In this document: positions 7,128 through 32,754 of the stretch, one piece after another
Numbering within the stretch: the first letter of the stretch is position 1
Layout of the letters: every line of letters starts with the position of its first letter
DNA from: Halobacterium bonnevillei
GTDB lineage: Archaea > Halobacteriota > Halobacteria > Halobacteriales > Halobacteriaceae
Direction of reading: 5' to 3'
Assembly: GCF_009831555.1 (NCBI RefSeq)
Contig: NZ_WUUU01000001.1
Coordinates: 1-64,000, forward strand
Length of the DNA stretch: 64,000 bases
Translations under genes and position numbers: made by a program
Notes under the pieces: model-generated
Databases searched by the model: none
Told to the model about the DNA's origin: nothing
What the model saw: only the letters and a program-made list of their open reading frames with translations

Positions 7128-7824
7128 GGCGGTGTTCAGATAAGGATGAAGAGTGAGGCGGAGCGATCTTCAGTGATCTATACCAGAAATCGCCCTCGTC
7201 AACGGGTGTTTGAGCGAGATGGAGCTAGGTTTTGTGGAGCGAGAAGCAACACCGAAACATTTTATGAATCTCGGTATTCAGTTCCATTTGCGAGGACTAT
7301 CACGTTCGAATCCCGTCTCTATTCTCGATATGTTCGGTGTTGACCGGGCTCAATCCACCGTTCACAACTGGGTTCACAAGACCGATCTACAGCCGGAGGA
7401 AGGTCGTAATCCGGATCAGGTTGCGGTTGACGAGACCGTGATCCGACTGAATGATGAGCAGTATTGGCTGTACGCCGCTATCGATCCGGCCACGAACAAT
7501 TTGTTGCATACAAAGCTTGAACCAGTCCGAGCCAATGTTTTCGCTCACGCGTTTTTCACCGAGCTACGTTAGAAACACGAAGTTGAGAACGCCGTGTTAC
7601 TCGTCGATGGCGCTGCACCGGTCCAAGACGCTTGCTCTCGTCACGGCCTTGGTTACAGATACGAAAAAATATGGTAATCGGAACAGCGTTGAACATATCT
7701 TTCATGAAGTAAAACGGAGAACTAGCTGTTTCTCGAACTGTTTCAGCAACGCGAATCGAGAAACTGCCGACAAGTGGTTATAATCGTTCGCCTTCGCATG
7801 GAATCAGCTTATTTGAGCACTACC
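7128..7824 (+). mobile_element. IS6-family element, lineage A, decayed copy with 8-bp target duplication
   Basis: A 697-bp element bounded by imperfect inverted repeats: GGCGGTGTTCAGATAAG at the left (7128-7144) and CTTATTTGAGCACTACC at the right (7808-7824). It is flanked by a perfect 8-bp direct repeat GAAATAAT (7120-7127 and 7825-7832), the duplication size known for IS6-family transposition. It has exactly the length of the intact copy at 15979-16675, so it has decayed by point mutation and balanced small indels without large deletion. Confidence 0.92.
7180..7816 (+). pseudogene. IS6-family transposase pseudogene (lineage A)
   Basis: The reading frame matches the transposase at 16032-16667 but is inactivated at least four times. 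The start ATG has become ATA (7180-7182). A TAG stop lies at 7570-7572. A one-base insertion near 7667 shifts the frame. A TAA interrupts the segment before the C-terminus at about 7781. The DDE Asp of VAVDET and the later VDG Asp are still recognisable in the broken frames. The copy cannot make a full-length enzyme. Confidence 0.9.
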
Positions 7825-7837
7825 GAAATAATGGGTC

Positions 7838-8303
7838 GTGTAAAGTTAGGAAGAGGCGATCGTTAGTTCGGGTGATCTATGACTGAATTCTGCTGCCTCT
7901 TCGGAGGCATCGAGTGGATCGTGTTGAAGATTGTGGAGCGAGAGCGGATATCCTAACAGATCATTGAACTCGGTATTCACCTCCATCTTGCGGGTCTCTC
8001 ACTTTTGAATACCAAACAGTATATTGAGAGGTTTTGTGTTGAGCGGAGTCGTACTGCGATTCATAATTGGGTGCAGAAAGCCGGTCTATAGCCGGCTGGC
8101 GGCGGTATCCGAATTGGACTGCGGTCGACGAGACAGTAATTCAGTTCAACGACGGACGAAACTCACTGTACGGCGCTGTTACTCTTGATACAAACAAATT
8201 TCTCCACGTCAAGCTGTTTCAGACGAGAACTACGCAACTTACCATGCTGTTCTTGCATGAACTTCGCGAGAATCAGCAGGTTGAGCAAGCAATTTTTTGC
8301 CAA
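7838..8303 (+). mobile_element. IS6-family element, lineage B, 3'-truncated relic
   Basis: It begins with a left end GTGTAAAGTTAGGAAG, matching the ends of the copies at 26691-27374 and 32073-32754. Recognisable pieces of transposase follow in several frames: a 'VERER' region, an HTH-like 'IHNWVQKA' region, 'VDETVIQFND', and 'TQLTMLFLHELREN'. It has multiple stop codons and stops matching just before the second catalytic Asp region. It lies five bases beyond the target duplication of the preceding IS6-A copy, so two unrelated insertions are nearly abutting. Confidence 0.75.
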
Positions 8304-8897
8304 TTGAACACGCTATATCAAAGCCGGGTTAGAGCAACCCATTCAGATTTTATAATTTAGTATCAACATAAAATAAAACTGAATAACAATATGCAAATAA
8401 AAAACATTATATACAGAATATACCCTACCCAAACACACCCACAACACAGTTTGTATAAATGTATCAGGATTGAAATGTTGTTATTTAACCATATCTGTAT
8501 TAAATAATTTAAATTTAATCTATAGCATATTTGTAATGCCAGTGTCAACAATACTTTCTGTCGAAAAACTTTGCGGAGTGATCATGATCAGCAGATATCT
8601 GTATTGAACGGTATGTTCCTGAGATTAACGATTACTTCCGCAGCGAGGTTTAGATTAGTTGTTATGACGAGTGCGGAGCAAACTGATACTATCTTTCGCA
8701 CTGTGGACGGCGAAGCCAGGAACTATCTTACGACTATCGGCCCGCTCCTTTAGTTGTTAAGTATCAATATAAATATTCATGTATGATTAGTGATCGGGCA
8801 GTAGAAAATAAGGAGAATCCATAACTTCCTCGATCTGGGCCAGGATGGACAACGAATGAAACGCTAATGATTTAGGACCTCAGAAGCATGCTTAGGC
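8304..8897. other. A/T-rich intergenic region without a supported gene
   Basis: About 590 bp, strongly A/T rich (long AAT/TTA runs around 8360-8530). A short open stretch at 8571-8753 has no start context or recognisable product, and its frames contain stops on both sides. I see no tRNA, no inverted-repeat element and no conserved protein motif. It probably represents decayed DNA between the IS relic and the A/T-rich glycosyltransferase gene. Confidence 0.5.
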
Positions 8898-10058
8898 ATG
8901 GACATCCTTCTGATAACTGGAGATTTCTACCCAATAACCGCTGGTGGCGCGTTTGAAGACACTGAAGTAGCAAAGTACGCTAATGAACAGGGACATAATG
9001 TAACAGTATTCACATTTAAATTAGACGACTCCCCCCGGCGTGAATTGTATCAGGGAATAGATGTACGCCGGCCAATACAACCGCCGTTTATCCAGGCCTC
9101 GATAGGCTCTATTCGGAGTAACCTTGGACGGTTATTCGCCTCGTTTGTCCTATTCTTATATGTATTAAAGTATTCCTTTAGTGAAAATAGTGATGTTATC
9201 TATTCTACTAATCATTCTGTTCATTGGGTTTCAAAAGTTGTTGGTGACTTTATCAATAGTCCAGTCGTAACAATTGTCTCGTATACTCCATCACTAGATA
9301 AATCAAACAAAAATATAACCAACATGTCTTATTTATTAGAACAATTGAATTTTCGGTTCTTCATGGGAAAATTTATACACTGTCGAACTCCACAAATTCG
9401 AGACGATATCAAAGCAATAAAAAGCAATACACCAGTGCAGGTCACACATGGAATCGTAAATAAAGAACGAGTCCGGGAGGCAGCAGACTCACTCCCTACT
9501 GAACCCGGGTGGGAAAAAACGGAGTTTGACATAAATTCACAAAATCATGTTTTATTGTTTGTTGGTAGGCTTGTCCCTTTGAAAAATCCTAAAATCGCTA
9601 TTGATGTTTTTTCAGAACTTCCAGATAATTTTGAGCTTATCATCATCGGGGATGGGCCCGAAATGTATGCGACTAAAAATTACGCAAAAACTATAATATC
9701 GAAGGAAAAAATTCACTTTGCGGGGGAAATCTCTCATGTAGAGACATTACAAACAATGCTATTAGCCGATGCTCTAGTTCTTACATCTACTACTGAATCC
9801 TATGGAGCTGTAGTATTTGAAGCTCTTTCCTGCTCTTCTTACGTCGTCGCGCCAAGAATCGGTATTTTACCGTCTCTTTCCGATGATATAGAATGTCTTA
9901 AGTTATCTCCACCCAAAGGTATGGCAAAAAAAATCCAAGATATGAATATGTCTTCATCACAGCGAAAAGTAAATAGTAAATTAATGGAAAAATACTCAAT
10001 CGAGAATTTTGCTGATGATGTTTGCACATCTTTCGAAAAGGTTGTCGACAATCGCTAA
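8898..10058 (+). CDS. glycosyltransferase family 4
   Basis: A 386-residue GT-B protein. The N-terminus LLITGDFYPITAGGAFED is the glycine-rich acceptor loop. The donor half starts at LLFVGRLVPLKNPKIAI. The E-x7-E type motif is seen as TESYGAVVFEAL, typical of retaining family-4 transferases. It lacks membrane segments and presumably acts on the inner face of the membrane. Codon usage is much more A/T rich at third positions than in the neighbouring genes, suggesting separate acquisition. It is flanked by IS relics on both sides and stands alone, with no operon partner. Donor and acceptor sugars cannot be told. Confidence 0.88.
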   Translation: MDILLITGDFYPITAGGAFEDTEVAKYANEQGHNVTVFTFKLDDSPRRELYQGIDVRRPIQPPFIQASIGSIRSNLGRLFASFVLFLYVLKYSFSENSDVIYSTNHSVHWVSKVVGDFINSPVVTIVSYTPSLDKSNKNITNMSYLLEQLNFRFFMGKFIHCRTPQIRDDIKAIKSNTPVQVTHGIVNKERVREAADSLPTEPGWEKTEFDINSQNHVLLFVGRLVPLKNPKIAIDVFSELPDNFELIIIGDGPEMYATKNYAKTIISKEKIHFAGEISHVETLQTMLLADALVLTSTTESYGAVVFEALSCSSYVVAPRIGILPSLSDDIECLKLSPPKGMAKKIQDMNMSSSQRKVNSKLMEKYSIENFADDVCTSFEKVVDNR

Positions 10059-10550
10059 GTGATAAACATATTTAAGTTTATAGAAATATAGGTAGATTGT
10101 AATTATATAAAGCGACTGAAGATCTCTCCGAACCCAGTGCTATCTCACTTTGCCTGAGGGGTGTTATCAACCGGTTTGGCTAAGTAGGGCTTCTCTCCAT
10201 CTTCACAGTATTCCCTACTATTACAATTATCTGTCATGAAGATGCTGGCTTCCATTGCTGGTTCTACAACGGCGAGGCTTGTGCAGTTGTTTATGTAATT
10301 TACATGTTACACACAGTAAGTAGATTATCTCCCCTTACCTTGACTTCCCTCGATTACAACACTGCGATTCGTGTTGTGCCGTATTAGGTTAGGATTTGAT
10401 CGGTCATAATTACTATTAATAGAATGAGATTTTAATCGCTTTGATGGAATATCGGGGACTGAGTTGGAATCTGCGAGGCCAGAGACGCAAACAGAGAATT
10501 AAACTTTATATTTAACTTTATTTACGGTTTTATTATTTGGATATTAAATA
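10059..10550. other. non-coding A/T-rich region
   Basis: Nearly 500 bp without an open frame that I can support on either strand. It is A/T rich, and it runs directly into a fragment of an IS6-B transposase. I see no structured RNA or promoter that can be assigned. Confidence 0.45.
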
Positions 10551-10827
10551 GTGTATTGGAAATAAATGTCAAGCGGAGCAGTACCACGGATCATTACTGG
10601 ATTCAGAAAGACGTTCTACAGCCGGCTGGCGACGGGGCCCTGAATCGGATCGCGGTCGACGAGACCGCGATTCAGATAAATAATGAACCACACTGCCTGT
10701 CCGCTGCTGTTAATCCTGAAACTAAGAAATTCCCTACTTAGACTGTTCCAAATTATAGCCCCGCGACTCATCGTGCTGTTTCCTTGTAGACTCCGCGATA
10801 AGCAGACGGTTGAGCAATGCTCAATGT
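10551..10827 (+). mobile_element. IS6-family lineage B internal fragment
   Basis: Translated pieces match the middle of the IS6-B transposase: an HTH-like segment (DHYWIQK), 'GDGALNRIAVDETAIQIN', and in another frame the 'RLLRDKQTVEQ' region. Neither terminal inverted repeat is present and internal stops occur. It is a relic of a second IS6-B insertion in the same orientation as the one at 7838. Confidence 0.7.
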
Positions 10828-15978: not shown

Positions 15979-16675
15979 GGCGGTGTTCAGATAAGGATGA
16001 AGAGTGAGGCGGTTCGTTTTCTGAGTGATCTATGCCCGAAAACGACCGCCTCACCGGTTGTTTAGACGAGATCAACTTAGAGTTTGTTGAACGAGAAGCG
16101 ACACCGCGATTGTTGATGGAGCTCAGTATTCAGCTGCATCTTGCTGGACTATCTCTTTCGAATACTGTTTCTATTCTTGAGGTATTCGGTGTCGAACGTG
16201 CTCGATCCACCGTTCATAATTGGGGTCACAAGGCCGATCTACAGCCCGAATCTGGTCGGTGTCCGGATCACGTCGCGGTTGATGAGACTGTGATCCAACT
16301 CAACGACGAGCAGTACTGGCTGTACGCCGCTGTCGATCCTGAAACAAACGAAGTACTCCATACAACGCTTGAGCCGACGACTACGAACGTTCTCGCTCAT
16401 TCATTTCTCACTGAACTCGCCGAGAAACACGATGTCTCCGACGCCGTGTTTCTCGTCGATGGCTCGCATTCATTGCAGAATGCATGTCAACGCCACGGCT
16501 TCGATTTCAGATACGAGAAACATGGAAATCGGAACGCTGTTGAACGTATATTCAGAGAGATAAAACGACGAACTATCTCTTTCTCAAACTGTTTCAGCAA
16601 TGCCGAAGCAGAAACCGCCGACGAGTGGCTCAGATCGTTCAGCTTCGCATGGAATCAGCTTATCTGAACACTACC
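15979..16675 (+). mobile_element. IS6-family element, lineage A, intact
   Basis: A 697-bp element with left end GGCGGTGTTCAGATAAG and right end CTTATCTGAACACTACC (inverted, 15 of 17 matching). It encodes one full-length transposase. The 8 bp on each side do not match (GTTATTCC versus TCGAAACA), so either this copy moved by recombination or cointegrate resolution, or flanking DNA was deleted. It is the likely autonomous source for the decayed copy at 7128 and the MITE at 22737. Confidence 0.92.
16032..16667 (+). CDS. IS6-family transposase
   Basis: 211 residues, the usual size for haloarchaeal IS6-type DDE transposases. Residues 35-72 form a helix-turn-helix-like DNA-binding part ending VHNWGHKADL. 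The DDE residues are visible as D84 in VAVDET, D143 in FLVDGSH and E171 in NAVERIF. It performs replicative cut-and-join of the element ends through a cointegrate. The frame is uninterrupted, unlike all other IS6 copies in the window. Confidence 0.93.
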   Translation: MPENDRLTGCLDEINLEFVEREATPRLLMELSIQLHLAGLSLSNTVSILEVFGVERARSTVHNWGHKADLQPESGRCPDHVAVDETVIQLNDEQYWLYAAVDPETNEVLHTTLEPTTTNVLAHSFLTELAEKHDVSDAVFLVDGSHSLQNACQRHGFDFRYEKHGNRNAVERIFREIKRRTISFSNCFSNAEAETADEWLRSFSFAWNQLI

Positions 16676-16760: not shown

Positions 16761-17651
16761 CTACTCAGCTGTTGCGAAAAGCGTGCAGTTGCGACCAACA
16801 CCAATATGCGCTAGTTGCGTGTAAAACGATCGTCGGTCCTCATCGGGGAGTGCCTGTTCAAATTTCACTCTTCGAGCATGACAGTTACTGCCAATTGAAT
16901 CGCTCTTAACGTAGTTATCCCCCATTAGGAGGAACTGAGACATCGGGAAGTCAGCAAATTTTGAATGTACTTTAAACCCGCAATCTGAGAGGAGGGTAGC
17001 TAGACTGGTAAAGTCAAAGTAGAAGATGTGTGTTGGCGCGTTTACCCACCACTGGTCAAGATCAAGTAATTTCTGGGCAGCAATTTGGAATGGATTAAAT
17101 TCGTTGGGTACCTTCACAATTAGCATCCCATCCTTTGAGAGGAGTTTATCACAGGCCTGGATAACTTCTGATGGATTCGGAACATGCTCAAGAACGTTAA
17201 ACATTGTTATCAGGTCAAAATCCGATTCATTAGAAATTGCGAACTCCTCAGCCGTAGTCTCATAGACCTCCAGACCTTTCGTGCGAGCTGCTTTCCCGAT
17301 GCGGCCCGAGGGTTCTATACCAACAGTGTCGTATCCATGGTTTTCCATAAAAGTAAGAAACTCACCAGTCCCACAACCAATATCCAGAACTCGCTGAGCA
17401 TTCGGATATTCTTGCTCAAATATATGCTTGTAGTCTGAATACCAAGTCGTTCTTCGCCACTCACGCTCACGTTTCGCTGCTTCGTCGTTTTGAAGAAGCC
17501 GAGATACGTCATCAGCGAGTTCACCGTCTTCTAGGAGTTCCGGATAATCACTCTGGTAGAATTCTGATAGTTCAGAATCGGTCGGAATCGGGTCGAGACG
17601 GAAATATCCGCACCTGTAATCTTTTACCAAATTGTATCGTTCGTCGCTCAC
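16761..17651 (-). CDS. class I SAM-dependent methyltransferase
   Basis: 296 residues. SAM-binding motif I is VLDIGCGTGEFL, followed by TVGIEPSG and the post-motif FDLITMFNVLEHVPNP. The family modifies sugars, lipids or small molecules; the gene's place in a glycan cluster suggests sugar methylation. Relatives often carry an N-terminal CxxC zinc ribbon before RYxLVxCxxCG. Here the protein starts inside that unit (YNLVKDYRCGYF). A TATA box 23-29 bp upstream of the GTG at 17651 argues that this shortened start is the real one. A degenerate paralogue end lies at 14281-14480. Confidence 0.85.
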   Translation of the reverse strand: MSDERYNLVKDYRCGYFRLDPIPTDSELSEFYQSDYPELLEDGELADDVSRLLQNDEAAKREREWRRTTWYSDYKHIFEQEYPNAQRVLDIGCGTGEFLTFMENHGYDTVGIEPSGRIGKAARTKGLEVYETTAEEFAISNESDFDLITMFNVLEHVPNPSEVIQACDKLLSKDGMLIVKVPNEFNPFQIAAQKLLDLDQWWVNAPTHIFYFDFTSLATLLSDCGFKVHSKFADFPMSQFLLMGDNYVKSDSIGSNCHARRVKFEQALPDEDRRSFYTQLAHIGVGRNCTLFATAE

Positions 17652-17673
17652 ACCTAATCAGTGGGTGGAATCA

Positions 17674-17680
17674 TATAAAT
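17674..17680 (-). promoter_or_regulatory. TATA box of the methyltransferase gene
   Basis: TATAAAT on the plus strand (ATTTATA on the coding strand) lies 23-29 bp before the GTG at 17651, the spacing of a leaderless haloarchaeal promoter. It supports the GTG as start codon. Confidence 0.55.
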
Positions 17681-17887
17681 ATGCTAGGGTCTTCGTTCCT
17701 ACTGCCCTTTTATTCAATATTCAAAATTTGAATTTAAACCGTTAAATGTACTATGGAAAGAAATCTCTAATGATGAGTTGTCGCCGACAATCCATTTCCT
17801 AATATAATTATAATTAGTAACACAACTATATCGGGCAATAACTCTTGATTCCTTAGATTTGACCTAATAATTGACGATCGGCTTTGT

Positions 17888-18922
17888 TCAGAAGTTACGC
17901 ATCGTCTCGATTGTTCGTTGACGGCCGTAACCGTCGACAATTTCTTGACCCCGGTTACTCATCCGTGTGCGATAATCAGTATCACTAATCAAACGAGTGA
18001 TTTCATTTCCAATTTCTGATTCCGCTATGTCTTCGAAATTACCCACGGGACTGAATAGTTTTGTTTGCCTCAGTCCCGTCATTGTGTACTCCTCAATTGG
18101 TGCAATCGTCCCCACGACCGTCGGAACTCCCATAAACGCCAGCTCCCAGCAGGTCGTTCCCCCCGAAGACACCGCGATATCTGCCCACGCCATCTGAGCG
18201 GCCATGTCTGACACATTCTGCTTGAGTTGAATCGATTGGTTAACTTCTTCCGCTAAGTCAGTCAGCTCTGGGAGTGAATCATTCAATGCCCCGACAATAA
18301 CGACTGTTTCCAAATCGGCTTCAACTTGGTCTAGAGCATTGAGAACGGTCTTTGTATGGTTGTTTGGGTCACTTCCGCCGAGTGTGACGAGAAGTGTTCG
18401 CGGTTTCACTTCGGGATCTGGCGACCAATCAATCCACTCCAGAAACTCATCTCGAAAGAGCACGTAATCAGAGCCGAGAAGCAGTTCCGTATCGGAATAA
18501 CGATTGGCGTACATGTCTTCATGCGCGTGAAGATTCTGATTAAGAACGATGTCCGTACCATAGTGGACCCGCTTCCCCATATCATCAATCAGTAGTACTC
18601 GTGCAGGACCGACAGTGAGTTCCGAGAGATAGTCAGCGTCAAAATGGGGCCCGTCAACGACGATCCAGCTAGCGTCGTATTCGTTCGCTATGTCTGTGGT
18701 TCGGGTAGCATCACATTGGGAGCCGCGCGGTGAATTCAGTCGGTGGACTCTCGTAGTCCACTGGTCAATGCGATCAGTGAGGCCGTTGGGTATCTTCGCT
18801 CCGACGAAGTGGACGTTGCCGTCGGCCTTGGACCATGCTTGCGCAAGCGACAGACATCGCATCACATGGCCTGTTCCGATTTGACTACTCCCATCAGTGC
18901 GAATAAGAAGTGTCTCCGTCAT
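17888..18922 (-). CDS. pseG: PseG-like UDP-sugar hydrolase
   Basis: 344 residues from the ATG MTETLLIRTDG, preceded by GGAGG six bases upstream; a longer frame to 18991 lacks support. The IGTGHVMRCLSLA motif, with its catalytic His next to the glycine-rich loop, and the C-terminal SSGGTTCWELAFMGVP donor-binding motif identify the PseG/MurG-like GT-B hydrolases. PseG removes UDP from UDP-2,4-diacetamido-2,4,6-trideoxy-altrose in pseudaminic acid synthesis. Neighbouring genes for the synthase and cytidylyltransferase support a nonulosonate role. Exact sugar stereochemistry cannot be inferred from sequence alone. Confidence 0.82.
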   Translation of the reverse strand: MTETLLIRTDGSSQIGTGHVMRCLSLAQAWSKADGNVHFVGAKIPNGLTDRIDQWTTRVHRLNSPRGSQCDATRTTDIANEYDASWIVVDGPHFDADYLSELTVGPARVLLIDDMGKRVHYGTDIVLNQNLHAHEDMYANRYSDTELLLGSDYVLFRDEFLEWIDWSPDPEVKPRTLLVTLGGSDPNNHTKTVLNALDQVEADLETVVIVGALNDSLPELTDLAEEVNQSIQLKQNVSDMAAQMAWADIAVSSGGTTCWELAFMGVPTVVGTIAPIEEYTMTGLRQTKLFSPVGNFEDIAESEIGNEITRLISDTDYRTRMSNRGQEIVDGYGRQRTIETMRNF

Positions 18923-19028
18923 ACATCCTCCATATTTAATACTCGTGTTTCTACTGATGTACAACTGACAGACGGTATGGACTTGAGACAACGAACGGTT
19001 TGCCGATCAGATTTCTCGAAAGTCGTCA

Positions 19029-19784
19029 TTATTCAGGCTCTGGCGGGTGCTTTTGTTGGATGTTTTGATTGATGCCTGCCCACCCCTTCTCGTCGATGAC
19101 GGTCACAACATCCTCTATCTCCAGAGGTTCGTCAGTCGGCATTTCCTCGTAGATTCGCCGGAGGAGTTCGTAGTCGTCGGCCTCGTCGAGAGTTAACCTG
19201 AGATCATCGCGTCCATGGAGGTGGGGTGCATCGAAAATCTCTTCGTCTGAAACGTTGCCGATGTCGAATTCATCTTGGTTCCTCAAGTAGTGCAACGTAA
19301 CATGTTCGCGTTCTTCACGTGACTTGGCCCGGCGCTCCACTGTCGAAAAACTTTCATATGTGAATGCCTCCACATCGAGGCCACGGGGAAGCGTCTGCTT
19401 CACAGTGTTCGAAACATAGTCCACGTCTGACTCTTGGAGGCGATGCACCACTGCGTCGATTCCCTGTGGTGAGATAAGTGGGCAATCACCGGTGATGCGC
19501 ACGACCACGTCAGCGGATACTTCTGTTGCTGCATTATACATTCTGCCAAGTACGTCTGGTTCAGATCCACGGTAGACGGTGGCGCCACACTGTGCAGCAT
19601 ATCGCTCGACAATATCGTCGGCAGTTGAAACACTTGTTGCGACGACTGTCTTGTTGATCGACTCTGCCCGCGAGACACGTTCGATATCCCGTTCGAGAAC
19701 ATGTTTTCCATCAAGCGGCAGCATAACCTTTCCTGGGAGTCTCGTCGATCCCATTCGGGCCTGAATGACAGCAATCGTATTCAT
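19029..19784 (-). CDS. pseF: SpsF/PseF-type cytidylyltransferase
   Basis: 251 residues of the nucleotidyltransferase fold. The signature IQARMGSTRLPGKVMLPL (nucleotide-binding loop with R and K), VVRITGDCPLIS with metal-binding Asp, and RLTLDEADDYELL mark the SpsF/CMP-sugar synthetase group. In the nonulosonate pathway it would activate the acid to its CMP form for glycosyltransferases. Same orientation as pseG 106 bp away and divergent from pseI. The family also contains other sugar nucleotidyltransferases, so the substrate rests on gene context. Confidence 0.8.
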   Translation of the reverse strand: MNTIAVIQARMGSTRLPGKVMLPLDGKHVLERDIERVSRAESINKTVVATSVSTADDIVERYAAQCGATVYRGSEPDVLGRMYNAATEVSADVVVRITGDCPLISPQGIDAVVHRLQESDVDYVSNTVKQTLPRGLDVEAFTYESFSTVERRAKSREEREHVTLHYLRNQDEFDIGNVSDEEIFDAPHLHGRDDLRLTLDEADDYELLRRIYEEMPTDEPLEIEDVVTVIDEKGWAGINQNIQQKHPPEPE

Positions 19785-19849
19785 CGGTTACACGTTAGGG
19801 TTCAGCCAGAATTAGTCTTCTTGTTCAACATCTATTGGACCTGCATAGA

Positions 19850-19855
19850 TTTATC
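19850..19855 (+). promoter_or_regulatory. TATA box of the NeuB/PseI-type synthase gene
   Basis: TTTATC lies 26-31 bp before the ATG at 19881, giving a leaderless-type promoter. It supports that ATG over in-frame upstream codons that overlap the divergent pseF gene. Confidence 0.5.
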
Positions 19856-19880
19856 CCGTCGTATCCGGAACACTCGTTTA

Positions 19881-20939
19881 ATGGAAATTGGCAGTCACCA
19901 AATCGGAACCGGTGACGAGACGTTCGTCATTGCAGAAGCTGGATCGAACCACAACGGTGACTTCGAAACGGCGAAAGAACTTATCGATAGAGGGGCAGAA
20001 GCGGGTGTTGACGCGGTGAAATTCCAAGTTTTTGCTGCTGACGATCTATACGTTGAGAATAGCGGCACTGACGAGGACTTAGCCGAAGACCAAAGCATTC
20101 ACGACGTTATTAGCACGCTTGAACTTCCACGCAAGTGGATTCCAGAGTTACACGAACACTGTGAACGACGAGATGTCCTATTTCTCGCAACACCGTTTGA
20201 TCAGCGAGCTATTGAACTGCTAGACGAGCACATCCCTGCCTACAAAATTGCTTCGTCCAGTATAACCCATCTTGCATTTCTTGAGCGAATCGCCGAGACA
20301 GGAAAGCCAATCATCATGTCAACTGGTGCTCACGAACTGGCGGAAGTGAAGACTGCAGTCCAAACCCTCCGAGAAGCAGGGGCCACCGACGTGGCTCTGT
20401 TCCACTGTGTGTCGTCGTATCCGACGCCAATAAATCGGATTAACGTACGCGCCATAGACACATTACGTGAGACGTTCTCAGTCCCAGTCGGGCTCTCTGA
20501 TCATACGACAGACCCTGTCATCGCACCAGCGGCCGCCGTAAGCCGTGGTGCGGCTATTCTCGAAAAACACTTCACATTGGACAGGTCGATGGAGGGACCA
20601 GATCACTCGTTTGCTCTCGAACCCGCTGAACTCGCCGAAATGGTTGACGCTGTTCGGAAGACTGAAAATGCACTCGGTGATGGAAATATTGGCGTGCAGG
20701 AAATCGAAGCGCATACGTACGAGGTTGCACGGCGCTCAGTTCACGCGACCCGCGATATCGCAGAAGGCGAGACGTTGACGAAAGAGAAGGTCGCCGTCCT
20801 CCGGCCCGGTAAGCAAGATAAAGGCGCTCCGCCGGCAGACTACGACGATCTACTCGGTAGAACCGCCAAAGCCCCCATTGAGAAGGACGCCGGCATTACC
20901 TGGGACGATATCGTCGACCCTATGCAGGAGGACCAGTAG
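19881..20939 (+). CDS. pseI: NeuB/PseI-type nonulosonic acid synthase
   Basis: 352 residues. The TIM-barrel N-terminus contains AEAGSNHNGD, DAVKFQVF and, later, GLSDHTTDP and AAILEKHFTLDRSMEGPDH, all hallmarks of the NeuB family. The last ~65 residues (RRSVHATRDIAEGE onward) form the SAF/antifreeze-like domain. It condenses phosphoenolpyruvate with a 6-deoxy-diacetamido-hexose to give pseudaminic or legionaminic acid, or with ManNAc for sialic acid; PseG and PseB-like genes nearby point to the first type. It converges with the HAD gene 45 bp downstream. Confidence 0.9.
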   Translation: MEIGSHQIGTGDETFVIAEAGSNHNGDFETAKELIDRGAEAGVDAVKFQVFAADDLYVENSGTDEDLAEDQSIHDVISTLELPRKWIPELHEHCERRDVLFLATPFDQRAIELLDEHIPAYKIASSSITHLAFLERIAETGKPIIMSTGAHELAEVKTAVQTLREAGATDVALFHCVSSYPTPINRINVRAIDTLRETFSVPVGLSDHTTDPVIAPAAAVSRGAAILEKHFTLDRSMEGPDHSFALEPAELAEMVDAVRKTENALGDGNIGVQEIEAHTYEVARRSVHATRDIAEGETLTKEKVAVLRPGKQDKGAPPADYDDLLGRTAKAPIEKDAGITWDDIVDPMQEDQ

Positions 20940-20967
20940 ACTAGATAAATAATATCTAATCATCTGA

Positions 20968-20992
20968 TTCTAAATTTTTGAAAATTAAAAAA
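20968..20992. terminator. A/T-rich convergent terminator region
   Basis: The 45-bp gap between the convergent synthase and HAD genes contains TTTTTG on the plus strand and A-runs that read as U-runs on the minus strand. Archaeal termination uses such U-tracts without needing a hairpin. It is a weak but positionally sensible call. Confidence 0.35.
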
Positions 20993-21653
20993 GATTATTA
21001 ATGGCTTGGGGAAGTGACGTAACAATGTCGTCGACCACTTCTGAGTCCTCTATGGCTTGACCGTCTCGACAGACTAGAACGGTGTGAGCAGTTATCCCAG
21101 TTCCTTCACAAGCCGCGATCGCGCTCTCTGCATCGCCCGGCCGGTCACCGACAATTGCCAACGAGGTTGGTTCCGAATCAAGTCGCTCGATTAGTTCGTT
21201 AATCATTTCAGAATCAGGTTTCGGTTTGTCAACGTCGTCTATTGCCACGAGAATGTCGGGGTCTGGAAAATTCGCCGCATCAATCGCTCTCTCCGCCGCT
21301 TCGCGAGTGTTGTTCGTCGCAATAGCCAAAGTCGTATCACTGGCTGCCACTCGTCTCACGGTAGTGGATGCGTCTTCGTAGATGTGTTGGCGTGAAACTG
21401 CGTCACGCTCCATGGCTTCTACTTGGTTGAACGCATCATTGCGGACTCTCTGTGTGGTTTCTTCGTCGGTTTGCTCAGCGACCTCTTCAAGTGCGCTCGT
21501 AAGGTCTACGAGCAGTGGCCTGAACTCGTATTCAACTCCAAACTGCTTGAACACGTCTTGGAGATTTGATCGAACTGTTTGCATCCCCTCACCGGTGAAG
21601 TCAAGTTGGACGAGCGTCCCATCGAGGTCGAATACAATAACATCTAGTGTCAC
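20985..21653 (-). CDS. HAD-superfamily phosphatase
   Basis: 222 residues. Motif I is VFDLDGTLVQLD with both catalytic Asp residues, motif II is IATNNT, and motifs III/IV are KPKPDSEMI and IVGDRPGDAESA. An all-helical cap lies between motif I and II, like phosphoglycolate-phosphatase-type enzymes. The upstream ATP-grasp gene overlaps it by 4 bp, so the two are translationally coupled. The context suggests a role in nonulosonate or glycan-precursor dephosphorylation, by analogy with sialate-9-phosphatase; this is inference. Confidence 0.82.
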   Translation of the reverse strand: MTLDVIVFDLDGTLVQLDFTGEGMQTVRSNLQDVFKQFGVEYEFRPLLVDLTSALEEVAEQTDEETTQRVRNDAFNQVEAMERDAVSRQHIYEDASTTVRRVAASDTTLAIATNNTREAAERAIDAANFPDPDILVAIDDVDKPKPDSEMINELIERLDSEPTSLAIVGDRPGDAESAIAACEGTGITAHTVLVCRDGQAIEDSEVVDDIVTSLPQAINNLF

Positions 21654-22687
21654 GTCTCGAACCCCTTGTTTTCTATTTCGTCCGTAGTGACAATTACTGG
21701 ATTGCAGTGTGCTTTCGATATGTAGTTGAGGTCGGTTGGAAGTGCATCATACGTCGGCGGGGTGTCGTACCGCTCCTCGAGCGCAATCTGGACCAACAGA
21801 GCAGTCAGATTGAGGCCTGCACGAAGATAGAACGCAGACGAAGTCGTTCCGAGACGGCCCGGATTTACTTCAGTTGCGTGAGGAATGCCCTCGTCGTTGG
21901 TCCGAAAATCGGTAAAGTATACACCGTGTGGACACTCGTCAACGGCCTTGATTGAGCGTTCGCCCAGCTCGTTTAGGTCATCCCGGTGGATAGTCCGTGA
22001 TACGGTGGGTGCGCCCGTTCCCCATGATTGTGACTCTCCGTAATCAAGTCGCTGTCGACTTTGACTACAGACTAACGTTCCTTGGTCAAACACCCCGAGC
22101 CAAGTGAGGTCATCCCCTGCCAAGTACGCCGACACAGTACTACTCCCCCATCCATTCTTGGAGTCGATACGATCCGCGATACGGTCCGGATCATGCATTT
22201 GCCGACCGGGATAGTCCTTGATTCCAGTTCCCCGGACCCAAACGTCATCAGTCGGAATGGATTCCAACGCGGCTTCGATATCCGATTGGTTCTCCACTAA
22301 CGTAGTCTTCGGCGTTGGAACATCAGTATTATTTAAGAGTTGATAAAGAGTCCATTTATTCTGAAATCGTGTGACCGCGTCACTTTGAGGAAGTGCTGTC
22401 TTCGCGTTCAGACGGTTGGCATGCTGACTAATTGCATTCACTTCCCATCCATTTGACGGTAGAACGACGTCAACTGATGCTTGTTCAATTATTTTTTCTA
22501 AACGGCCATGATAATCATCGTCCGAAGCGAGTGGCACTTGGTATGTGTTATCCGCCTCAGACAGAAACCCGTAATACTTGTTGGCTTCAGTACCGACGAC
22601 GTTCACGTCTCTGTCCCACTCGCGGAGTCCTCTAATCATATTGGCCCCGATATTACCACCAGAACCTGTTACCAGAACAGTTAGCAT
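21650..22687 (-). CDS. ATP-grasp protein (carbamoyl-phosphate-synthase large-subunit-like)
   Basis: 345 residues. The N-terminal pre-ATP-grasp Rossmann part reads VTGSGGNIGANMIRGL, then the ATP-grasp region VPTPKTTLVEN, DVWVRGTGIKD, HGVYFTDFRTNDEG and ATEVNPGRLGTT, where E and N are metal ligands. The family ligates a carboxylate to an amine or thiol using ATP. Similar genes accompany nonulosonate and capsule clusters in bacteria. A role in adding an amino-acid or acyl group to a sugar is possible but unproven. First gene of a two-gene unit with the HAD phosphatase; promoter TATA at 22712-22717. Confidence 0.75.
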   Translation of the reverse strand: MLTVLVTGSGGNIGANMIRGLREWDRDVNVVGTEANKYYGFLSEADNTYQVPLASDDDYHGRLEKIIEQASVDVVLPSNGWEVNAISQHANRLNAKTALPQSDAVTRFQNKWTLYQLLNNTDVPTPKTTLVENQSDIEAALESIPTDDVWVRGTGIKDYPGRQMHDPDRIADRIDSKNGWGSSTVSAYLAGDDLTWLGVFDQGTLVCSQSRQRLDYGESQSWGTGAPTVSRTIHRDDLNELGERSIKAVDECPHGVYFTDFRTNDEGIPHATEVNPGRLGTTSSAFYLRAGLNLTALLVQIALEERYDTPPTYDALPTDLNYISKAHCNPVIVTTDEIENKGFET

Positions 22688-22711
22688 TCACCGAAAATCT
22701 GCAGACGACAG

Positions 22712-22717
22712 TATAAA
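22712..22717 (-). promoter_or_regulatory. TATA box of the ATP-grasp/HAD operon
   Basis: TATAAA on the plus strand (TTTATA on the coding strand) lies 25-30 bp before the start at 22687, a leaderless spacing. The promoter abuts the MITE that begins 20 bp further upstream. Confidence 0.55.
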
Positions 22718-22736
22718 AACCTTCGTAGAGTCAGCA

Positions 22737-22866
22737 CGTAGTGTTCAGAAATGCTGGTTCTCTAACCTGACTAAATATCGCTCATAGAACCTTTGACGCG
22801 GTCGTTTTCAGACATATAAAATCGGAGGACGAACCCCTCATTCATCATCCATATCTGAACACCGCC
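22737..22866 (-). mobile_element. 130-bp MITE derived from the IS6-A ends
   Basis: The minus-strand left end GGCGGTGTTCAGATATGG and right end TCTGAACACTACG copy the two ends of the 697-bp IS6-A element. The first ~80 bp also align with the element's 5' region, including a GAAAACGACCGC block present in the intact copy at 16032-16060. The transposase gene is missing. This is a non-autonomous internal-deletion derivative that could be mobilised by the enzyme at 16032. No 8-bp target duplication is visible. Confidence 0.75.
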
Positions 22867-23088
22867 GTTAACGTGATCCATGCAATTATTGATCAATGAG
22901 ATTGTTGTTTTTCATTCCTTAATAAATAGATTAACAGAAACCAACTTTCATGACGAACTGTCTGAATCAGAGTGCAATCCGCTGCATAACCCTCAGCCGA
23001 TTCGACGGTTCATGGTAGCTATGCGCTTCTTCCACCAATAGGAAGTGAAATACAACACCTAAACGGTGGTTGGGGCAATATGGAAGTA
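22867..23088. other. intergenic region between MITE and aminotransferase stop
   Basis: About 220 bp, A/T rich near 22900-22940, without an open frame or recognisable structure. It lies downstream of the minus-strand aminotransferase operon and probably contains its terminator. Confidence 0.4.
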
Positions 23089-24279
23089 TTACTGGTAGTG
23101 AGCCGCGATCTGGTGGATCGCTGTAACGACCCGATCATGATCTTCGTCGCTCATACCGGGATGAAGGGGGAGTGAAACGAGTCGATCATAGAGCCGATTA
23201 GTCACGGGGAACTGCTCGGCTGAATAGCCGTGTACCTCTTGGAAATGTGGGTGGTGATGCAGCGGAACATAGTGGACTTGAACACCGATGTTCTCCGCAT
23301 GCATTGCGCGCACGAACTCACCGCGGGAGCAAGGAAACGCCTCATCGATTTCGATCGCATATAGGTGCCACATCGGATCGACACTATCCTTAACAGTCGG
23401 TATCTCGATTCCGCCGATGTCGTCGAGTTTAGTTTCATATCGCTCAACTAACTCGTCACGCCGTTCTTTGAACTCTTCTATGCGATCAAGTTGCATGCGG
23501 CCCAGCGCAGCCTGGATATCCGTGAAATTGTAGTTGAATCCGACGCCTTCGGTGGCCTGATACCAGGGTTCGTTTTCATGGCCTTCGTGGTCGGAGGACA
23601 TCTGGAAGGAGCGATAGGAACGAAGGCGCTCGGCGAGGTCGTCGTCGTTGGTGACGACCATTCCACCCTCGGCAGTGGTAATGTTCTTCACGGGATGAAA
23701 GCTAAACATCGCCATATCGCTTTCGCTGCCGATACGATCACCGTCGTAGCGCGATCCCAAGGCATGGCAGGCATCCCAAATGACAGTAAGGTCGTGTTCG
23801 TCGGCGATTTCCAGTAGCTCATCGATTGCACACGGTTGGCCTGCATAGTGCATCGGAATGAGCGCCTTTGTATCCTCAGTGATCCGTTCCCTGACAGCCT
23901 CGGGATCGAGATTACGGGTATCAGGTTTTATATCCGCAAAGACCGGTTCGGCATCGGCGTGACAGGCCGCGTTCGCCGTTGCCGTGAAGGTGAGTGGTGT
24001 AGTGATCACCTCATCACCCGATCCGAGACCCGCGGCCAACCCTGCGATATGGAGGGCAGCGGTTCCAGATGTAACTGCAATGGCGTGGTCGGCACCAACG
24101 AAGTCCGCGATCTCCTCTTCGAAGGCTTCGACCTCGGGGCCGCGTGTGATGTAATCCCGGTCCAGCACGTCCAGAACAGCTTCTTTCTCAGCTTCGCCGA
24201 TCGATTGCCCGCCGTACCCGATCCCCTCCGGGAATGCAGGATCTCCCCCTGCGATGGCGGGGGTTTGATTCCTACTCAT
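23089..24279 (-). CDS. pseC: DegT/DnrJ/EryC1/StrS aminotransferase (PseC-like)
   Basis: 396 residues from the ATG MSRNQTPAIAGG, which overlaps the upstream stop by 4 bp (ATGA). PLP-enzyme features are AVTSGTAALHIA, the WDACHALGSRYDG phosphate/Asp region and the lysine in FSFHPVKNITTAEGG. It would transaminate a 4-keto-6-deoxy UDP-sugar to the 4-amino sugar. In the operon with the PseB-like dehydratase this matches PseC. Other 4-aminosugar pathways use the same family, so the assignment rests on context. Confidence 0.85.
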   Translation of the reverse strand: MSRNQTPAIAGGDPAFPEGIGYGGQSIGEAEKEAVLDVLDRDYITRGPEVEAFEEEIADFVGADHAIAVTSGTAALHIAGLAAGLGSGDEVITTPLTFTATANAACHADAEPVFADIKPDTRNLDPEAVRERITEDTKALIPMHYAGQPCAIDELLEIADEHDLTVIWDACHALGSRYDGDRIGSESDMAMFSFHPVKNITTAEGGMVVTNDDDLAERLRSYRSFQMSSDHEGHENEPWYQATEGVGFNYNFTDIQAALGRMQLDRIEEFKERRDELVERYETKLDDIGGIEIPTVKDSVDPMWHLYAIEIDEAFPCSRGEFVRAMHAENIGVQVHYVPLHHHPHFQEVHGYSAEQFPVTNRLYDRLVSLPLHPGMSDEDHDRVVTAIHQIAAHYQ

Positions 24280-25214
24280 GCTTCCTCCGTGTTCAGCCAC
24301 TTACGTAACTGTGTGACTCCCTCATCAAGAGATATCTGTGGTTCCCAGCCGAGGAGTTCACTGGCCTTCGTCGGATCGCACAATAACTTCTGTACCTCAC
24401 TCTGTGGGTGGTGGTGTTCCACGTGTGTAATCTCGGTCCCCTCTGTCGCAATCAGCTCAGCAAGATCATTAATCGAGATATCACGGCCGGTCCCGGCATT
24501 GATCACTTCCCCAATTGCGGCATCAGCAAATGTCGCATCCACAATGAACCGGGCACAGTCAGTCGCGTACAACAAGTCCCGTGTCTGAGTCCCTTCTCCG
24601 AATATCTTGAGCGGCTCATCGTCCAGATCTCGACTGGTAAAAATGGACACGACGCCACCGGCCATCCCGGTTTTCTGATACGGTCCGTAGGTATTGAACG
24701 GCCGGAGGATCGTCACCGGCAGGTCAAACCCGTGATAATAGGACTCAGCAAGGTTCTCGGCCGCGAGCTTTGTTCCAGCATACGGTGACGCAGGCTGGAC
24801 GGGATGTGTTTCATCGATCCCCACTTCCGAATCGGCCATATCGTACACCATACATGTCCCTACCAATCCAAGCCGAACATCCCGTGTTCGGCAGGCTTCA
24901 AGCACTCGCTGAGTACCAATGACGTTTGTCTGGAAATGTGAGGCCGGATCGTCGAGACTTTCCTGCACATCGATCTCCGCGGCGAGATGAATACATGCCT
25001 CGGCATCCTCAACGAACAGTTCCTCCACGTCTGCCTGCGTCCGTACATCGCCCTCAATTAGCGTGAACGACGGATTGTCTTGGAATGCACGGACGTTCCG
25101 TTGGCTGCCGTTCGAGAGATTATCTAATCCACGGACATCGTAACCTCTCGAAAGGAGTTCATCAACCACCCACCTGCCGATGAACCCAGCGGCACCTGTA
25201 ACGATAACCGTCAT
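24276..25214 (-). CDS. NAD-dependent epimerase/dehydratase (UDP-glucose 4-epimerase-like)
   Basis: 312 residues. GAAGFIGRWVV at the N-terminus binds NAD, HLAAEIDVQES and the catalytic YAGTK are present, then RPFNTYGPYQK. It is the middle gene of a minus-strand operon. It overlaps the dehydratase stop by 4 bp upstream and the aminotransferase start by 4 bp downstream, so all three are translationally coupled. It may be a C4- or C5-epimerase setting the stereochemistry of the nonulosonate precursor, or a branch enzyme. This step is not part of the canonical pseudaminic route. Confidence 0.85.
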   Translation of the reverse strand: MTVIVTGAAGFIGRWVVDELLSRGYDVRGLDNLSNGSQRNVRAFQDNPSFTLIEGDVRTQADVEELFVEDAEACIHLAAEIDVQESLDDPASHFQTNVIGTQRVLEACRTRDVRLGLVGTCMVYDMADSEVGIDETHPVQPASPYAGTKLAAENLAESYYHGFDLPVTILRPFNTYGPYQKTGMAGGVVSIFTSRDLDDEPLKIFGEGTQTRDLLYATDCARFIVDATFADAAIGEVINAGTGRDISINDLAELIATEGTEITHVEHHHPQSEVQKLLCDPTKASELLGWEPQISLDEGVTQLRKWLNTEEA

Positions 25215-26241
25215 TGCATCACCTCGATGGCTCCGTTTGCCCTCAGGAGATTGGTGATTTCGTCTCGATCGAGTTTCTCCGCGGATTCAGACGTTCGGAC
25301 AATCTGCTCTGTTTGCTTGAAGCCAGCAATTCCGTCATGGGAAAGGTATTGAGAGTGACCGTCTTGGGTCTCCGGCGGAATTGCCAACAACGATTCACTT
25401 TCGAGTACACGCCCCGCTTCCCGCTGAGTCATGATGTGCTCGTGAAGCGTTTCTCCGACACGTCGTCCGATGATTTTGATATCGATCTCTGACGGATCGT
25501 AGCCGAATTCGGGGGCAAGTACGTCAATCATTGCGTGCGCCAAGTCTTCGATGCGGATTGCTTTCATTTTCTGAACAAACACTTCTCCGCCGTTCATATG
25601 CTCGATCGCTCCCATAATTAAGTGCTTGATATTGTCGTAGGTGAGAAAGAATCGCGTCATTCGGTCGTCAGTGAGCGTTACCGGGCCGCCGGTCTTGATT
25701 TGCTCTTTGAACACCGGTATGACCGACTGCGACGAATTGATCACATTGCCAAACCGAACGGATGCGAGCGATATCTCGGTTCCACCAGTGTACGTATTTC
25801 CCGCTGTGGTTAGTTTTTCGCCAAGTAATTTGGTTGTCCCCATCGTATTCGCAGGGTTTGCTGCTTTATCGCTGCTCGTGAATACGAATCGCTCGACCGT
25901 TGAATCGATTGCAGTATCGATGATGTTCTGTAATCCAACAACGTTGTTTTAACCGCCTCAAACGGATTGTATTCTGAGATATCGACGTGTTTCATCGCTG
26001 CGGCGTGCACAACGATGTCGATCCCTTCCATGGCTCGTTCCAGGCGCTTTTTATCACGGACGTCTCCTAAGAGAAACCGACATCTCTCATCATCAAGCTT
26101 CGATTGTAATTCGGTAAGAGCCGGTTCACTGTTATCGAAAATCCGGACGATGTTTGGGTCCTCTACAAGAAACCGAGAAATAAGGGCACGACCGACAGAC
26201 CCCGCGCCCCCTGTTACGAGAATGTTCTGGTCGGTTAACAT
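25211..26241 (-). pseudogene. pseB: PseB/CapD-type UDP-GlcNAc 4,6-dehydratase, frameshifted
   Basis: The two halves together make a normal ~343-residue polysaccharide-synthesis dehydratase. The N-terminal part starts at MLTDQNILVTGGAGSVG and runs to KHVDISEYNPFEAVKT. The C-terminal part resumes at MGTTKLLGEKL and contains RFGNVINSSQSVIPVF and QKMKAIRIEDLAHAMI. One base, probably an A in an AAAC run near 25945-25947, is missing. Restoring it gives KTNVVGLQNIID and an unbroken frame. No other lesion is seen, so a sequencing error, a very recent mutation or ribosomal slippage are all possible. Its reaction would be the first committed step of the nonulosonate pathway. Confidence 0.85.
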
Positions 26242-26334
26242 ACGAATATGGGCATGACCAGGAGACAAATCAATCTACCGTTCAACATCGCAATGGGAGG
26301 ATATCGGAATAGCCGGCTCGTGTGAGTTGGTGTT

Positions 26335-26690: not shown

Positions 26691-27374
26691 GTGTTAAGTT
26701 TAGTATTGATTCTACCAGTCGGCGAAGGCTTGGAGCCACGGTTCTGCTGTCGGTGGCTCCACGTTGCTGATCGTATTTGAAAACGAAGAGGGTTCGACGT
26801 TTACCTCACTAAAGACACGTTCGACAGCATTCCGATTTCTGTGGCGAATTATTTGAAGTTGGAGCCCGAGCCGCTCCAGGGCGGCTTTGAGATAGGACCC
26901 TCCATCGATGAGAAACGTCGCTTACTTGACCTGCTGTTTCGTGCAGGTTCCACGGAGGAACAGCACGGTAGGTTGCATGGTTCTTGTCTGAAATAGCCTA
27001 GCATGGAAGAACTCGTTTGTATCGGGACCGACAGCGGCGTAAAGCCAGTGTCGTTCATCCGTTGATTCGAATCCTTGCCTCGCCGACCGCGATCTGATTC
27101 GGAGCCCCGTCGCCAGCCTGCTGTTGATCAGCCTTCTGTACCCTCTTGTGAATCGCGGTGCGACTCCGCTTGACACCCACCCACTCTAGATACTGTTTTG
27201 GTATTCGAGAGCGAGAGGCCCGCAAGATGGAGGTGAATACCGGCTTCAATGATCTGCTTGGGTGTCCGCTCTCGCTCCACAACTCCAAGTCGAGTCACTC
27301 GGTACCTCCGCTGAGGCGGTCGAATTCGGCCATAACCATCCGAACTGACGGCCGTCTCATTCCTAACTTGACAC
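26691..27374 (-). mobile_element. IS6-family element, lineage B, full-length but decayed
   Basis: 684 bp between GTGTTAAGTTTAG (26691) and the inverted CCTAACTTGACAC ending at 27374. The minus strand contains broken transposase pieces: MAEFDRLSGG then a stop, LHLAGLSLSN, 'AVGPDTNEFFHARLFQ' and a 'VERVFSEV' region. Several frameshifts and stops make it inactive. No 8-bp flanking duplication is found. It separates the frameshifted dehydratase from the glycosyltransferase at 27530. Confidence 0.82.
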
Positions 27375-31592: not shown

Positions 31593-32063
31593 TTGATTCC
31601 GGCAGACGACGAAGACTTGAAGCTACGGTCTGCTGTCGCCGACTCCACGCTGCTAAACGTATTTGAGAACAAATATAGTCGGATTTTAATCATGAAAACA
31701 TATTTTTCAACCAATCCGATTATTGGTAACGTGTCATCTGAGTTGGAGTTTAGGTCGCTCTGAGGTGGTTTAAGATAGTTCCCACCCTCGAAAAGATTGC
31801 CCGCATGACCCGCTGTTTCTCTCGAAGTTCACGAAGAAACTGCACAGTGAGTCAGGAGGTTCTGGTCTGAAACAGTCTAACGGGAGAAATTCATTGATTT
31901 CGGGACCAACGATAGCGTGTAGCTATTGTAGTTCATCGTTGATCTGAATCACAATCTGATCAGCCGCGATCTGATTTAGAGTTCCGTCACAAGTCGGTTG
32001 TAGATTGGTATCTTGAACCCAATTGTGAATCGCGGTGCAACTCTGCTCGACGCCCTACATCTC
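31593..32063 (-). mobile_element. IS6-family lineage B relic, interrupted
   Basis: A strongly degraded minus-strand copy. The 3' region (GACGAAGACTTGAAGCTACG, compare GGCGAAGGCTTGGAGCTACG in the next copy), the VDET-equivalent area and the HTH-equivalent segment are recognisable in order. Its 5' part stops near 32063 where the next IS6-B copy begins. It also carries an extra A/T-rich insertion near 31680-31740. It is older than the adjoining copy. Confidence 0.65.
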
Positions 32064-32072
32064 AAGATCGTC

Positions 32073-32754
32073 GTGTTAACTTTAGCATCGATTCCACCAG
32101 GTGGCGAAGGCTTGGAGCTACGATTCTGCCGTCGGTGGTTCCACGTTGCTGAACGTATTTGAAAACGAAGAGGGGTTCGATGTGTTACCTCACAAAAGAC
32201 ACGTTCAACACTGTTCCGATTCCTGTGGCGAATTATTTGAAGTTGGAGCCCGAGCCGCTTCAGGGCGGCTTTGAGATAGGGCCCTCCATCGATGAGAAAC
32301 GTCCCTTATTTGACCTAGTGTTTCTCGTGGAGTTCACGGAGAAACAGCATGGTGAGTTGCGTACTTCCCGTCTGAAACAGCCTAACGTGGAGGAATTCTT
32401 TAGTTTTGGGACCGACAGCAGCGTACGGGCAGTGACGTTCGTCGTTGATCCGAAGCACCGTCTCGTCCACTGCGATATAATTCGGGCCCCGTCGCCAGAC
32501 GGCTGTAGATCGGCTTTCCGAACTCAATTCTGAATCACGGTGCGACTTCGCTCGACACCCAACTTATCAAGATACTGTTTGCTATTCGAAAGTAATAGAC
32601 CCCAAGATGGAGGTGAATACCGGCTTCAAAGATCTGCTCGAGTGTCCGCTCTCGCTCCATAACTCCAAGTCAATCCAGTCGGTACCTCCGCTGAGGCGGT
32701 CGAATTCGGCCATAACCAGCCGAACTAACGACCGCCTCACTCCTAACTTAACAC
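32073..32754 (-). mobile_element. IS6-family element, lineage B, full-length but decayed
   Basis: 682 bp between GTGTTAACTTTAG (32073) and inverted CCTAACTTAACAC (ending 32754). The minus strand starts ATG GCC GAA and reads MAEFDRLSGGTDWIDLEL before shifting frame. Later segments include 'AVDETVLRIND' and 'TQLTMLFLRELHEKH' followed by TAG. It appears inserted into the older relic at 31593-32063. Its outer end lies 25 bp from the rmlC promoter. Confidence 0.82.

Follow-up and report, generated by a model that had tools for sequence, protein, structure and literature searches.

A worn, single-copy IS6-type relic beside the TATA box of an ATP-grasp/HAD operon in a haloarchaeal sugar cluster

The window (the whole 64,000-nucleotide stretch of Halobacterium bonnevillei DNA analysed here) carries a nonulosonic-acid-type sugar cluster at 16761–26268, with PseC-, NeuB/PseI- and PseG-like proteins, an ATP-grasp/HAD pair and a methyltransferase. 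A short element with IS6-type ends lies upstream of the ATP-grasp/HAD pair, 6.06 kb from an intact IS6-type element, here called IS6-A. The features considered are as follows.

15979–16675, plus strand: IS6-A, intact archaeal IS6-type element of 697 bp with consensus ends and no target duplication
16032–16667, plus strand: IS6-A transposase, 211 aa (PF13610 DDE_Tnp_IS240; NF033587 IS6 family transposase)
16761–17651, minus strand: SAM methyltransferase gene
20985–21653, minus strand: HAD-family hydrolase, second gene of the operon
21650–22687, minus strand: ATP-grasp-type gene, first of the operon, with a weak PylC-like N-terminal match
22712–22719, minus strand: TATA box of the ATP-grasp gene, outside the relic
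22737–22866, minus strand: IS6-type internal-deletion relic with both ends and without the transposase domain, delimited by BLAST, alignment and IS consensus ends
22737–22753, minus strand: 3′ terminal inverted repeat of the relic, CATTTCTGAACACTACG, 3 of 17 bases off consensus, the last base among them
22771–22815, minus strand: transposase-start remnant, MSENDRVKGSMSDI, followed by a stop (IS6-A: MPENDRLTGCLDEI)
22850–22866, minus strand: 5′ terminal inverted repeat of the relic, GGCGGTGTTCAGATATG, 1 of 17 bases off consensus
22985–23056, minus strand: fragment resembling a different IS transposase region, beside the relic

Several decayed IS6-type copies were also observed in the window, at 7128–10744, 26706–27333 and 31878–32710.

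The relic spans 130 bp in minus-strand IS orientation, with bounds set by the consensus ends GGCGGTGTTCAGATAAG and CTTATCTGAACACTACC; its minus strand starts with GGCGGTGTTCAGATATGG and ends with ATTTCTGAACACTACG. By BLAST it is homologous to the 5′ part of IS6-A (E = 4.4e-13, 80% over 80 bp), and within the window also to that of the decayed IS6 copy at 7132; a relaxed alignment with IS6-A gave 74% over 118 columns. At the other end of the relic, 20 of 23 bases agree with the 3′ end of IS6-A. Local alignment to IS6-A scored 47, with a maximum of 16 among 1000 shuffles, and the 3′ 25 bp scored 17, with a maximum of 11 among 5000 shuffles; chance similarity was ruled out by these shuffle tests on both parts. 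The relic consists of about 103 bp of the IS 5′ end and about 22 bp of the IS 3′ end, and about 570 bp of the IS middle, nearly the whole transposase gene, is absent. The transposase start codon and 13 more codons are kept before the stop, and the DDE domain is missing. In addition, the terminal inverted repeats GGCGGTGTTCAGATAAG and CTTATCTGAACACTACC are still recognisable, with 9–10 core bases of each intact (GTGTTCAGAT and TCTGAACAC). Judged by its sequence, the relic is a derivative of an archaeal IS6-type element by internal deletion, with both termini kept. The initial annotation had placed the element at 22737–22866, as the consensus ends also do, and had rightly described both IS termini as copied and the transposase as lacking; its homology to the IS6-A 5′ region was likewise borne out, at a measured length of about 103 bp rather than the 80 bp given.

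The consensus ends were built from 22 length-complete IS copies with both ends 600–760 bp apart, a count in which the window's own loci were not entered twice and from which loci lacking a right end in range (L010, L012, L021, L022, L028, L030, L032, L033 and L035) were left out. The 5′ consensus end was identical in 18 of the 22 complete copies, as was the 3′ consensus end over 17 bases, and all 22 keep the final C at the 3′ end. A target duplication was found at 8 of 8 bases in six complete copies (L006, L011, L020, L024, L026 and L031) and at 7 of 8 in one (L014); the other 15 reached at most 5 of 8, with IS6-A at 3. ISH14, ISH29 and ISHarch12 are tabulated in PMC6807381 at 696–698 bp, with a 211-aa transposase and an 8-bp duplication, and in these tabulated features the class agrees with IS6-A and its relatives, which have 697 bp, 211 aa and, in the best copies, 8 bp. 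Compared with the class, the relic is short by about 570 bp, has lost the transposase and has damaged ends. ISH14/ISH29-class elements, with their length of about 697 bp and 211-aa transposase, fit as the putative parent type of the relic.

The relation of the relic to individual copies was also evaluated. Its closest relatives were L005, L006, L007 and L008 at 77–78%, compared with 74% for IS6-A, and none of 392 genomes yielded a parent that matched clearly better, the best longer matches standing at 78%. The relic is closer to other members of the group than to IS6-A, yet far from all of them, which suggests that its parent was probably a sister copy of IS6-A. The earlier statement that it was made from IS6-A is therefore not upheld, although an intact matching transposase, the 211-aa frame of IS6-A, does lie nearby as stated.

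The relic is strongly diverged. Of 105 columns, 27 do not carry the majority consensus base in the relic. Among the 31 IS loci in the alignment this number lies between 2 and 34, and a single locus, the degenerate L033, has more than the relic. At the 73 columns with at least 90% agreement, the relic shows 10 changes, L033 shows 11 and the other loci show 0–7. No 8-bp target duplication was found at the relic under nine boundary choices; the best flank match, 4 of 8, was reached by random flanks in 53% of trials. This lack is weak evidence, since 15 of the 22 complete copies are also without a convincing duplication.

Copy number was assessed in the window's own genome, a 3.5-Mb draft of 362 contigs and 92% completeness in which repeats may be missing. 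The 130-bp form gave three matches there (the relic, IS6-A and the decayed IS6 copy at 7132), and no second copy of the 130-bp form was found. Two further hits to the 11-base core of the inverted repeat (C3 and C60) look like chance and have no IS sequence around them by eye. At E ≤ 0.001, 84 of 392 genomes of the order matched, the window's own included, with two candidates scored in most. Among the candidates scored in the 391 other genomes (two in most), no second full-span copy was present; every scored match except the relic itself covered part of the relic only. The genome-wide search proposed initially returned no further copies of the 130-bp form, and the term MITE, if it means a mobile family with several copies, does not fit an element with one copy in its own genome and no target duplication. 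Mobility, which the initial annotation had left open, appears unlikely because both inverted repeats are damaged, one of them at its outermost base. Taken by its sequence features, the relic is old, probably immobile and not an active MITE.

The best explanation of these data as a whole, to which we assign a probability of roughly 0.8, combines insertion, internal deletion and decay to an immobile relic with an independent TATA box. An ISH14/ISH29-class sister of IS6-A would have inserted between the aminotransferase and ATP-grasp genes of the nonulosonic-acid-type sugar cluster; about 570 bp of its middle would then have been deleted and the rest would have decayed, and the end state would be a single-copy relic of both ends that no longer moves and does not supply the promoter. 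We infer the loss of mobility, the order of events and the lack of an effect on expression. The relic is ordinary: a common jumping gene worn down to a single-copy remnant, and not the origin of the start signal of the sugar genes. On its own it matters little, beyond replacing the picture of a promoter steered by a live MITE. It is also one clear case of an IS remnant that sits where gene order breaks within a sugar cluster of a haloarchaeon. Nothing on this element appears in passages of PMC3119063, PMC6807381, PMC10969869, PMC7986276 and PMC10264941.

The gene-order break was identified by comparison with a second genome of the order, G208, whose corresponding cluster (locus L081) is without the relic. 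The order in G208 is aminotransferase, methyltransferase (on the opposite strand), ATP-grasp, HAD, NeuB-type synthase, cytidylyltransferase and PseG-type hydrolase. The first gap lacks the methyltransferase in the window; the gene there follows the PseG-type gene, flipped relative to its G208 orthologue and 85 bp from IS6-A, and the aminotransferase/ATP-grasp gap, from which it departed or which it never entered, holds the relic and the other-IS fragment at 22985–23056. This arrangement, with the relic in place of the G208 methyltransferase and the flipped gene beside IS6-A, suggests but does not prove an IS-linked rearrangement.

One such rearrangement is that IS6-type activity moved the methyltransferase, with the relic as departure site and IS6-A as arrival site, in the manner of an IS26 translocatable unit; IS26 is described in PMC7986276 as moving neighbouring DNA as such units. 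The matching positions in the two genomes are consistent with this, as is the clustering of IS6-type transposase matches, 12 of the genome's 13 being on this contig. However, no flanking 8-mers common to the relic and IS6-A were seen by eye, and the other-IS fragment occupies the same gap as the relic. Moreover, the methyltransferase was detected at E ≤ 1e-40 in 2 of 392 genomes, the window's own and G208, and in 1 of 146 genomes of the G208 family. Since only these two genomes carry the gene, the direction of its move is ambiguous, and no third genome showing it was present among the 392 genomes of the order and the 146 of the G208 family. Plasmids gave one distant bacterial hit only, and the sequence upstream of the methyltransferase (17652–17887), searched for IS remains, matched nothing in the 58 other genomes searched. 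We consider this reading unlikely, although it is compatible with the insertion and decay of a sister element and both can hold. Its general form, in which archaeal IS6-type elements would move neighbour genes as IS26-like translocatable units and the methyltransferase would have been taken from the gap and set down flipped by IS6-A, leaving the relic as a scar, is a long shot. The rearrangement is a lead only, and is worth testing given that the authors of PMC6807381 state, in the passage concerned, that they found no experimental data for archaeal elements.

The relic could alternatively be a true MITE that was already short on arrival, having been mobilised in trans by an IS6-type transposase, and that IS6-A could still mobilise. 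At 130 bp, with both IS ends and no transposase, it resembles a MITE; the several copies per genome expected of one are lacking, with one copy in the 3.5-Mb draft. Its core repeats are retained, an intact transposase lies 6 kb away, and a named archaeal IS6-type MITE, MITEHarch3, is described in PMC6807381 as having IS6-type ends without a transposase, as the relic does, a likeness by description only. Two IS6 MITEs on record in the part of PMC7986276 concerned, of 227 and 336 bp, are both longer than the relic. Furthermore, with a looser end pattern, short elements were recovered from 8 of 392 genomes, among them the window's own; in the 7 others, the repeat-bearing elements measured 103–158 bp between outer cores. 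Among them, L089 (1489–1617, in G151, of the same genus) is an IS6-type MITE with a perfect 8-bp duplication, GAAGGGGC. L085, L086, L088 and L090 (each at about 1501–1623) form a MITE family of 110–123 bp with IS6-type ends and a common non-IS interior, at four loci in three genomes (G119, G075 and G309), and a relative at 87% lies on a Halorhabdus tiamatea plasmid. These five repeat-only elements have asymmetric ends and a size like those of the relic; they differ in that several have a common non-IS interior and L089 has a perfect duplication, whereas the interior of the relic is decayed IS 5′ sequence. The duplication of L089 and the common non-IS interiors elsewhere indicate that live-type MITEs with these ends exist in haloarchaea and that the relic is of another make, a deletion derivative. 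The single copy, the lack of a duplication, the damaged ends and the high divergence also argue against a true MITE, which we regard as improbable, although survival of the core repeats leaves some room for trans-mobilisation of the relic.

The relation of the relic to the promoter was examined in the same comparison. The ATP-grasp gene starts at 22687, at leaderless spacing to its TATA box, and the TATA box lies 17 bp from the relic edge; the closeness to a promoter reported initially is supported. Nucleotide homology with G208 covers the gene and the TATA box and ends at window position 22734, 2 bp short of the relic. The relic is excluded as source of the TATA box, which lies outside it and is common to the relic-free G208. 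This homology argues that the core promoter is older than the relic, or at least independent of it, and speaks against the suggested influence of the element on the promoter; a remaining effect is possible through loss or replacement of upstream sequence only. That the relic itself serves as promoter or regulator of the operon, for example via the TATA-like run TTTTATAT at 22814–22821, which faces the operon and is absent from the aligned IS copies, is very improbable despite the 17-bp distance, because the operon has its own leaderless-spaced TATA box shared with G208 and the run, which overlaps the former start codon, resembles drift.

Exact consensus ends 91–151 bp apart were also sought in 84,980 species genomes, in a scan that needs perfect ends and so would miss decayed copies and may omit the window's own genome. 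It returned one element, in Halorubrum laminariae, with a deletion junction that differs from that of the relic. This element (L054, 4998–5144) is a short IS6 deletion derivative with a near-perfect duplication (7 of 8 by eye).
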